64,000 bases of DNA from Aliarcobacter skirrowii CCUG 10374 (GTDB taxonomy: Bacteria; Campylobacterota; Campylobacteria; Campylobacterales; Arcobacteraceae), in contig NZ_CP032099.1 in assembly GCF_003544835.1 (NCBI RefSeq), positions 620,001-684,000 on the forward strand. Direction: 5' to 3'. Below are positions 3,000 to 35,788 of the stretch, one piece after another (position 1 is the first letter of the stretch; each line of letters opens with the position of its first letter). Made by a program: the position numbers and the translations under genes. The notes below the pieces were generated by a model that made no database searches, was not told where the DNA came from, and worked only from the letters and a program-made list of their open reading frames with translations.

Positions 3000-3641
3000 T
3001 TAAGCTAAAGCGTTTATCATATCTTTTGTAACTTCTGATACATCTTTTGTACCATCAAGTTCCATAAACAGACCCATTTTTTTATAAAAATCAATTAGTG
3101 GTGCCGTTTGAGAGTGGTATGCTTCAAGTCTGCTTTTTACAGTCTCTGCATTATCATCTTTTCTAATAGTTAATTCTCCACCACAATAGTCACAAACACC
3201 ATCTTTTTTTGAAGGATTAAACTCAACATGGAAAGATGCTCCACAACCAGAACAAACTCTTCTTCCTGTAATTCTTCCTACAATTAAGCTATCAGGAACA
3301 TTTAAAGAGATAACTTTATCAAGTTTAATTTTCATATTTTCCATAAGTTCACTTAAAGCCTCAGCTTGAGCCAAAGTTCTTGGAAAACCATCAAGAATAA
3401 ATCCATTTTTACAATCAGCAACAGCTAGTCTATCTTTGATAATTCCAATAATAGTAGAATCTGGAACTAATTGCCCAGCATCCATAAATTTTTTAGCTTC
3501 CATTCCCATATCTGTTTTGTCTGCAATTGCTGCTCTTAAGATATCTCCTGTTGAGATTTGTGGGATATTGTACTTCTCAATTAGAAATTTAGCTTGAGTT
3601 CCTTTTCCAGCTCCTGGTGCTCCAAATAGCATTAAATTCAT
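3000..3641 (-). CDS. adk: adenylate kinase, long zinc-lid type
   Basis: Phosphotransfer between ATP and AMP. The 213 residues carry the P-loop GAPGAGKGT (7-15), AMP-site DGFPRT (84-89) and a long LID with four cysteines (C130, C133, C150, C153), the structural zinc site seen in Gram-positive and many other bacterial enzymes. AAGGAT lies just before the ATG. It is divergently paired with a second, short adenylate kinase (3771-4343) of the kind usual in Helicobacter and Campylobacter, so one of the two looks surplus. Both keep their catalytic motifs; which one does the housekeeping is unknown. Confidence 0.95.
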   Translation of the reverse strand: MNLMLFGAPGAGKGTQAKFLIEKYNIPQISTGDILRAAIADKTDMGMEAKKFMDAGQLVPDSTIIGIIKDRLAVADCKNGFILDGFPRTLAQAEALSELMENMKIKLDKVISLNVPDSLIVGRITGRRVCSGCGASFHVEFNPSKKDGVCDYCGGELTIRKDDNAETVKSRLEAYHSQTAPLIDFYKKMGLFMELDGTKDVSEVTKDMINALA

Positions 3642-33986: not shown

Positions 33987-33994
33987 AACATATA

Positions 33995-34036
33995 CATAAA
34001 TAGTGTGTTATTACTTGATATTAGACACTATTTATG
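33995..34036. promoter_or_regulatory. 12-bp perfect inverted repeat, candidate operator
   Basis: CATAAATAGTGT (33995-34006) and ACACTATTTATG (34025-34036) are exact reverse complements separated by 18 bp. The -35 hexamer lies between the arms and the right arm fills most of the spacer before the -10, so a protein bound here would block the promoter. As RNA it could also form a weak hairpin behind the upstream gene, but there is no T tract. Confidence 0.65.
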
Positions 34037-34043
34037 ATATAAT
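34015..34043 (+). promoter_or_regulatory. sigma70 promoter of the small OB-fold gene
   Basis: TTGATA (34015-34020) and TATAAT (34038-34043) with exactly 17 bp between, one of the best promoters in the window. AGGAG at 34055-34059 serves the ATG at 34065. Confidence 0.75.
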
Positions 34044-34064
34044 AAATAAAAAATAGGAGATAAA

Positions 34065-34415
34065 ATGTTTGGAAAAATTATTGCTTTCAATAAAAAAGAT
34101 AAAAATGGTTTTATAATTGATGAAAATGGAAAATCTCACTATTTCGATGAAAAATATTTAACAAAAGATACAGATGTATCAGTTATAAAAGAAGGTGTTG
34201 AAGTACAATTTGACTTAAACGAAATTGGCTCAAATTATTTTCAAATAAGCAATTTAGAACTAAAAAAAGAAATTATACAAAAAAAAGAAGATGATTTAGA
34301 GTATTGGAATAATTTAATGAAGAAAAATACTACAAAAGAAGAAGATTTTGAGGAATGGTTTAGTAATGATATAGCAAATGATCCAAATGGTTTACAATAC
34401 TATATAGGAAGATAG
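34065..34415 (+). CDS. cold-shock-like OB-fold protein with acidic tail
   Basis: A 116-residue protein. Residues 1-68 look like a degenerate cold-shock-type OB fold (MFGKIIAFNKKDKNGFIID ... HYFDEKYL ... NYFQISN). They align without gaps to residues 1-68 of the facing gene (34705-35238): shared positions include Gly3, Ile5, the Lys-x-Gly-x-Ile at 13-17, YF at 26-27, IKE at 41-43, NY and Q near 57-60. The tail (69-116) is acidic and has no recognised motif (EEDFEEWFSNDIANDPNG). It has its own strong promoter with an overlapping inverted repeat. Nucleic-acid binding is an inference from the fold. Confidence 0.7.
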   Translation: MFGKIIAFNKKDKNGFIIDENGKSHYFDEKYLTKDTDVSVIKEGVEVQFDLNEIGSNYFQISNLELKKEIIQKKEDDLEYWNNLMKKNTTKEEDFEEWFSNDIANDPNGLQYYIGR

Positions 34416-34449
34416 ATAATTTCTTATTTTCTTCTTAATATAGATTTAA

Positions 34450-35238
34450 TCATTTTAATAAATACACTATCACATCAAGTATCTTTTTTATAGGGTAAGA
34501 TATTTTTGGACTCATTTTTAAATACTCTGCTACTCTTGGCGAATATCTATAATAATATTTAACAAAGCTAGTACCTATTTTGTTAGTTAATAAGTGTTTA
34601 TCTCTAAACTCTCTTAATATTTTAACTTTTGGGTGTTCATAATTGTTGTTATAAATTGCTGTTGCAATGAAACAACCACTACTTCTAAACTCTTTTACTA
34701 TGCTTCAACAAAAAGGGCAAATAGAGTGAGAAGGTGCACCATTTAATACAATAATTCTTGGAACAATAAATTTGCCACAAATACACTCAATTCTATTATC
34801 TTTATGATAATTATCTTTTTTTCTATTTGAATTGTTAATTACTGTAATATTTTTAGCACTCACTTGTTCATTTTTATTAACATATATATCAAATTCTACA
34901 TTCTGATTATAAGGCATACTAGAGTCTTTCCAGTCACTTATAAAGAAATATATATCTTTCGTATGTTCATTTGTAAAAATAAAACCATATCCCTTGTCTT
35001 TATTGTAGAATTTAACATTTCCAGTTTGCTTACTTTGTTTAAATTGAATATTTTTAACCTGACTATAATTATTGCTAATATTTTCTAATTCAAAAGATAC
35101 GGTAGTGTTTTCTTTTATTAAATTAACTTCATTCTTATTTAATAAGCAAGTATCATTAAAATAATAAGTAGTTCCACTATCTGCTAAAATTTTGCCTTCT
35201 TTACTTGATTGAGAGTAGCTTTTAATGATTCCTTGCAT
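34450..35238 (-). pseudogene. two OB folds + zinc ribbon + CFI-box protein, interrupted by in-frame TGA
   Basis: The frame from ATG 35238 (AAGGAA upstream) runs 177 residues to TGA at 34705-34707. It comprises an OB fold like the neighbour's (1-68), a canonical cold-shock domain (about 71-134, with KGYGFIF as RNP1) and a zinc ribbon (CICGK ... CPFC, about 150-177). Directly past the TGA the same frame continues for 84 codons to TGA 34450-34452: SIVKEFRSSGCFIATAIY then ILREFRDKHLLTNKIG and YYYRYSPRVAEYL, a clear CFI-box C-terminal domain. The stop sits exactly where the knuckle CPxCG should have glycine, so GGA to TGA is the simplest change. The first 177 residues may still be made as a protein; readthrough is the alternative. 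Confidence 0.8.
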
Positions 35239-35266
35239 AATATTTCCTTTTTGTAAAATAATGTTT

Positions 35267-35295
35267 ATTGTATCATAATATTATATAATTGTCAA
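35267..35295 (-). promoter_or_regulatory. sigma70 promoter of the OB-fold/CFI-box gene
   Basis: On the minus strand TTGACA (35290-35295) and TACAAT (35267-35272) are 17 bp apart: a consensus -35 with a near-consensus -10. The start codon is 29 bp beyond the -10. A fully formed promoter argues the gene is, or recently was, expressed. Confidence 0.75.
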
Positions 35296-35356
35296 ACCAA
35301 ATACACATTATATATTTATAATATATACATATAATACATTTTTAAGTTGTTTATGT

Positions 35357-35362
35357 TATAAT
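35357..35362 (+). promoter_or_regulatory. -10 element of the small HTH gene
   Basis: TATAAT, 30 bp before the TTG start at 35392. The region 17 bp upstream (ATACAT) is a poor -35, but the surroundings are T- and A-rich as usual in this group. Confidence 0.45.
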
Positions 35363-35391
35363 TCATAAAATTCAATACAAAGGATAAATAT

Positions 35392-35607
35392 TTGGAAGTA
35401 GATATATTTGAACAATTATTAAAAAAAGCCAATTTAACAAAAAAAGAGTTTTCTATTTTAGTTAAAATGAATTATACAAGTGTAACTAATTGGAATGGCT
35501 CAAAAAATGTTCCTGATTGGGTAGAAAGTTGGCTAGAAAATTATATTAAAGCAAAAGTTGCTGATGATATAATAAAAGCAATAGAGCCTTTAATAAGGGA
35601 GAAATGA
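35392..35607 (+). CDS. small helix-turn-helix protein with TTG start
   Basis: A 71-residue protein. The start is TTG at 35392, backed by AAAGGA eight bases upstream; no ATG or GTG lies in frame nearby. Residues 5-50 read as an XRE-like HTH (FEQLLKKANLTKKEFSILVK then YTSVTNWNGSKNVPDWVESW), a form common in phage- or island-borne regulators. It lies in the accessory insert next to the OB-fold genes and divergent from the larger one, so it could control that promoter; this is an inference from position. Confidence 0.72.
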   Translation: MEVDIFEQLLKKANLTKKEFSILVKMNYTSVTNWNGSKNVPDWVESWLENYIKAKVADDIIKAIEPLIREK

Positions 35608-35759
35608 AAAATTACAGTTAAATCGATTTCATATTCATTTAATAAAGTTAATTATAGAATTTCAAAAAGAAAAGGATAGAAGGGAGCTTTTTGTACTATT
35701 AGTTGTGTTTCGCATGGTAAATGCAATTCACCAATTTTTGAATTGTTTTTGTAGATAAA
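35608..35759. other. non-coding gap between HTH gene and rpoD terminator
   Basis: I see no gene here. One frame stays open for some 50 codons (ending about 35757) but has no start with a ribosome site and no recognisable protein. AAAAGGATAG near 35675 is not followed by a usable start codon. Confidence 0.5.
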
Positions 35760-35788
35760 ATTATGTAGAGATTAACTCTCTACATAAT
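35760..35788. terminator. bidirectional hairpin terminator at the rpoD 3' end
   Basis: ATTATGTAGAGA and TCTCTACATAAT form a perfect 12-bp stem with a 5-base loop. It is flanked by TTTTT on the plus-strand side and by AAAA on the other, so it can stop transcription from both directions. It spans the rpoD stop codon. Confidence 0.8.

Follow-up and report, generated by a model that had tools for sequence, protein, structure and literature searches.

An in-frame TGA separates a CFI box from its cold-shock and zinc-ribbon-like parts in an accessory gene of Aliarcobacter skirrowii

Introduction

A group of proteins encoded on Burkholderia plasmids (for example WP_208001353.1, WP_084910848.1 and WP_062911827.1) combine a cold-shock domain (CSD) and a zinc ribbon with a C-terminal CFI box, and are annotated as 'cold shock domain-containing protein'. 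Most of the plasmid copies lie close to a gene for an integrase-domain protein. The CFI box is a widespread domain for which we found no solved relative, and a literature search under its name returned no paper.

The stop codon UGA is read differently in different bacteria. Its suppression was about 12% in one Escherichia coli reporter, versus 0.04-0.08% in two Pseudomonas species (PMC9481147), and the rate at which it leaks is therefore species-dependent. Genes for tRNA-Trp with a four-pair anticodon stem favor UGA readthrough and are reported to be more prominent in Campylobacterota; such a stem, or the change A9C or G24A in tRNA-Trp, marks a suppressor-type tRNA (PMC13092985). Insertion of selenocysteine at UGA calls for a SECIS hairpin, which in bacteria has G in the first two loop positions, a spacing of 16-37 nt and a minimum free energy (MFE) of -7.5 or lower (PMC13188914).

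Here we describe a gene of the RNA-binding type from Aliarcobacter skirrowii CCUG 10374 with the domain order of the Burkholderia proteins, and with 37-39% identity to them over residues 60-262, in which a TGA stands ahead of the CFI box. The gene lies in a stretch of 64,000 nucleotides (positions 620,001 to 684,000 of NZ_CP032099.1), which we call the window and whose numbering is used below. The host, a member of the Campylobacterota, has a genome of one complete contig of 1,969,846 bases, with 100% completeness.

The interrupted gene

The upstream open frame starts with the ATG at 35238 and encodes 177 amino acids before ending in a TGA (35238..34705, minus strand). This TGA (34707..34705, minus strand) directly follows the codons for CPFC, and beyond it the frame stays open over another 84 codons (34704..34453, minus strand) up to a closing TAA (34452..34450, minus strand). 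A preliminary description had reported both the 177-residue frame ending at CPFC and an intact CFI-box domain in 84 codons free of other stops, and the coordinates and profile search bear it out on each count. The post-stop piece matches the NCBIfam family NF041770 (CFI_box_CTERM) with 86.1 bits (E = 1.1e-24, cut-off 40 bits) and covers positions 1-68 of the 69 in the profile. After the stops of 57 other long ORFs in the window, the median distance to the next in-frame stop is 5 codons; other extensions of at least 100 codons run into a neighboring ORF or have an early ATG, and the remainder reach at most 55 codons. The strength of the CFI-box match, together with this comparison, shows that the extension is real coding sequence and not a chance open frame. 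Modeled with AlphaFold2, the CFI box gives a confident, all-helical structure (pLDDT 86), with which Foldseek retrieved no relative from the PDB (best E = 7.8).

Three parts precede the stop. Residues 72-133 (34840..35025, minus strand) are a cold-shock domain of family PF00313 with a KGYGFI motif (Pfam 49.6 bits, cut-off 27 bits), and they match CspA/CspE-type sequences in the PDB with a best E of 3.1e-6. Residues 148-177 (34708..34797, minus strand) form, in alignments, a zinc-ribbon-like segment with cysteines at 152, 154, 174 and 177. Residues 1-70 (35029..35238, minus strand) are a degenerate cold-shock-like segment, which is missing from all homologues examined and is known, by alignment, only here and in the neighboring ORF at 34065-34415. 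The two cold-shock-like folds proposed earlier are thus secure for residues 72-133, but weak for residues 1-70, where the likeness comes through the neighbor alone. Searches of PHROGs and PADLOC gave only generic cold-shock matches, and the 177-residue part, when modeled by AlphaFold2 without an alignment, reached a pLDDT of 35.

An AAGGA sequence of the ribosome-binding type stands ahead of the ATG at 35238. Further upstream is a promoter-like TTGACA-17-TACAAT (35267..35295, minus strand), which agrees with the consensus at 11 of 12 positions and has a TG ahead of the second hexamer. To that extent the consensus promoter of the preliminary description is present; however, the region as a whole holds 13 promoter-like matches against 15.8 expected from shuffled sequence, so that the TTGACA-17-TACAAT sequence is a plausible promoter which the scan does not distinguish from chance. 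Between the TGA and the CFI box there is no in-frame ATG, GTG or TTG, the earliest being at codon 242. Barring a non-standard start, the CFI box would therefore be made only by passage through the stop, and internal re-initiation to give a separate CFI box is ruled out for standard starts.

Homologues and the position of the stop

Five intact, full-length homologues, from Burkholderia and Comamonadaceae plasmids and one Campylobacterota genome, continue through the position of the stop, as does a sixth, in the genome G359, whose CFI box is degenerate and shortened. The tblastn search of plasmids recovered uninterrupted proteins of matching domain order from four Burkholderia plasmids and one Comamonadaceae plasmid, and the genome searches yielded two orthologues elsewhere in the Campylobacterota, in G246 and G359. 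A scan of genome contigs for other strains yielded a CFI box only, in Spirochaetes, a DNA pattern spanning the stop had no match in viral contigs, and a second strain of the species was not among the genomes recovered from the genus or the order. A plasmid of Shewanella xiamenensis carries an unannotated CSD/zinc-ribbon homologue (L035, about 3049-3480) with a TAA inside its cold-shock domain. Several homologues adjoin integrase or recombinase genes, and the family accordingly looks mobile.

The column at which the TGA falls is occupied by Ala or Gly in the homologues and by Cys in none. The earlier placing of the stop at the glycine of a CPxCG motif is therefore half right: the TGA does follow CPFC, but Ala is as frequent as Gly in that column. 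A GGA ancestor is an insecure assumption, given the Ala of the closest homologue, G246. Past CPxC every homologue examined goes on through a short conserved segment, whose last residue is the conserved Phe of column 184. This includes homologues from Klebsiella, Methylobacter and G394 that lack a CFI box, which have other, short C-termini and keep the conserved segment after CPxC. An end exactly at CPFC is thus an abnormal terminus for this family.

Age of the stop

The codons beyond the stop had been described as undecayed, and the comparison with intact relatives agrees. Where post-stop columns are invariant among the proteobacterial homologues, the interrupted gene keeps 25 of 38, against 26 of 38 in the intact G246 orthologue and 15 of 34 in the degenerate G359 orthologue. 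The relative rate against G246 differs by -1.2% (95% bootstrap interval -8.6 to 6.2), with no difference on either side of the stop. Since the post-stop part has diverged no faster than its counterpart in an intact homologue, the stop is either recent or tolerated. In a neutral simulation, which ignores indels, the probability of acquiring no further stop fell from 0.56 at a divergence of 0.05 substitutions per site to 0.12 at a divergence of 0.2, which bounds neutral ageing loosely at about 0.2 substitutions per site. These data fit a recent stop, within a loose bound on its age.

Some positions do depart from the family. The first zinc knuckle is CIC, a CxC that has lost one residue, compared with CxxC in every homologue, and the pair of CxxC knuckles that characterizes the ribbon of the homologues is accordingly absent. 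The second knuckle is CPFC, and all four cysteines lie before the stop. Within the CFI box, the conserved AYG has become IYN and there is one extra residue. As read from the alignments, the CxC knuckle and the YN change may be lesions or may be lineage-specific changes.

The locus and its distribution

Thirty other species of the genus lack the interrupted gene, and across the order it is found in 4 of 399 genomes, one of the four lacking the CFI box. Its convergent neighbor encodes 116 amino acids (34065..34415, plus strand) and is related to residues 1-70, with 30% identity over 82 amino acids (E = 4e-13 in a two-sequence comparison; E = 3e-9 in a search of its own genome). This ORF matches the cold-shock domain below the Pfam cut-off. 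Searches of the rest of the family turned up neither gene, and the segment shared by two convergent neighbors suggests, at the level of sequence similarity, that they may have arisen by local duplication or have arrived together.

Both genes occupy a variable spot (window 33987-35771) that is flanked by a conserved gene on one side and rpoD on the other. The corresponding site in relatives holds about 20 bp in one genome (G002), pieces of an IS-type transposase in another (G009), and a chemoreceptor-type gene in a third (G023). This is a variable site, and the interrupted gene, which was probably acquired horizontally, is an accessory one. Close by, at window 35392-35607 on the plus strand, is a TTG-start ORF of 71 amino acids. 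Relatives of its DNA, 68-73% identical, occur at other places in this genome and also in further species of the genus, and the ORF is a repeated small gene.

Explanations for the interrupted frame

The preliminary description offered a very young nonsense mutation, phase-like variation and stop readthrough as explanations, and the first of these has the best support, with homologues uninterrupted at the site and no excess divergence downstream. We consider it probable that this is an orphan, dispensable and horizontally acquired CSD/zinc-ribbon/CFI-box gene, recently cut by a single in-frame nonsense mutation. Ribosomes would then terminate at the TGA, and the product would be at most 177 amino acids long, retaining the cold-shock domains and all four cysteines of the ribbon but lacking the CFI box. 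The stop would be tolerated on account of the gene being dispensable, as its absence from every other species of the genus examined suggests, and the gene would count as a pseudogene at an early stage, or else as a gene truncated at its C-terminus that is turning into a pseudogene. Against this stands the fact that the stop is seen in one strain, and so could be private or a base-call error. A sequencing, assembly or single-isolate artefact in a species that normally has an intact gene would need just one base-level change, and would agree with the occurrence of the stop in only one genome and with the wholly unrelaxed appearance of the downstream part. Base-substitution errors are, however, rare in finished genomes such as this single complete contig. 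The chief competitors of a young nonsense mutation are this explanation and functional readthrough, each of which we regard as unlikely, to about the same degree. The 177-residue product might itself be functional, and under a selected truncation it would be the form that works, with the CFI box as leftover sequence. The short, differing C-termini of the Klebsiella, Methylobacter and G394 proteins, which indicate that the C-terminus is exchangeable, and the retention of all four cysteines lend this idea some weight; but those short homologues keep the conserved post-CPxC segment that is lost here through the stop, the first knuckle of the interrupted gene has become CxC, and downstream decay is not seen, all of which make it a rather poor prospect. 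Phase-variable switching has nothing beyond its on/off look in its favor. A switch of that kind has a slippage-prone repeat or an invertible segment, whereas the sequence and a repeat scan reveal neither a homopolymer nor a short tandem repeat at the stop, the longest tract being a run of five T, and nearby direct repeats that are short, imperfect A/T-rich pairs. Moreover, the change is of an in-frame, substitution type, which repeat slippage does not create, and switching can practically be dismissed.

If readthrough still yields the CFI box, one would expect the downstream frame to be intact just as much as after a recent stop. In functional readthrough a near-cognate tRNA would read UGA in some passes of the ribosome, to give both a short form and a long, CFI-box form. 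The full preservation of the downstream domain speaks for such an outcome, as does the A that follows the TGA. An A after UGA is a permissive readthrough context in E. coli. UGA is the leakiest stop of that species (PMC9481147). On the other side, there is no conserved recoding structure, and Rfam gave no matches over the region up to E = 1. The one tRNA-Trp gene examined has a full five-pair anticodon stem (T:A, C:G, G:C, G:C, A:T) together with A9 and G24, and carries none of the known readthrough-promoting features; the altered-tRNA route is thereby unsupported, and we reject it. Ordinary leakage at UGA, at a low level, may nevertheless occur, and its extent differs widely from species to species (PMC9481147). 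Programmed readthrough is recognized by a stop conserved in relatives along with a conserved downstream frame, but here the stop occurs in a single sequence, and the homologues produce the long form stop-free, which leaves a regulated length without precedent. The short and long forms foreseen in the preliminary description consequently find no positive evidence. The narrower version, in which a leaky and perhaps regulated UGA would give a short protein with the cold-shock and zinc-ribbon parts and, in lesser amount, a long form with the CFI box, is a shade less credible still. Selenocysteine at the UGA (CPFCU) deserved consideration because the genome encodes SelB (309 bits, G000:C1:908151-909956), a tRNA-Sec with anticodon TCA (G000:C1:911362-911455, an ARAGORN call that scores slightly under the Rfam gathering cut-off) and an FdhA with an in-frame TGA in HQARI-U-HSSTVAG (G000:C1:927786-928631). 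The best hairpin after the TGA of the CFI gene that satisfies the SECIS rules reaches only -4.6 kcal/mol, compared with -10.3 for FdhA as a positive control, and is equaled at 27% of random in-gene sites, against 2% for FdhA. The lack of a SECIS-like hairpin and of a Cys in the stop column of any homologue makes selenocysteine very improbable, and we reject it in spite of the SelB and tRNA-Sec genes.

Taken as a young nonsense mutation of an accessory gene, this is a modest case. It carries the caution that a stop can hide a CFI-box domain, so that annotation misses it. The case would matter more if several strains keep the TGA and a conserved downstream frame. To our knowledge, there are few documented cases in which a chromosomal bacterial gene gains a functional extension by readthrough other than selenocysteine insertion, and for this reason readthrough here would be of greater consequence.

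Comparison with known systems

FdhA of the same genome resembles the interrupted gene in having an in-frame TGA inside a conserved protein, but differs in the strong SECIS hairpin that the CFI gene does not share. The Burkholderia plasmid proteins differ in that their CPYC has no stop after it, their first knuckle is CxxC, and they are without the extra N-terminal cold-shock-like segment. The G246 orthologue (L071:4430-5023, 197 amino acids) is the closest, with 48% identity, an intact CSD, ribbon and CFI box, and an integrase-like neighbor gene; unlike the interrupted gene, it reads without a break through an Ala at the stop column, and it too is without the N-terminal segment. The G359 orthologue (L072:4125-4676, 183 amino acids) likewise has a CSD, a CxxC ribbon and a partial CFI box, with an integrase alongside. 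Its degenerate CFI box, however, is cut shorter by a later stop, which makes it another, independent case of CFI-box loss.
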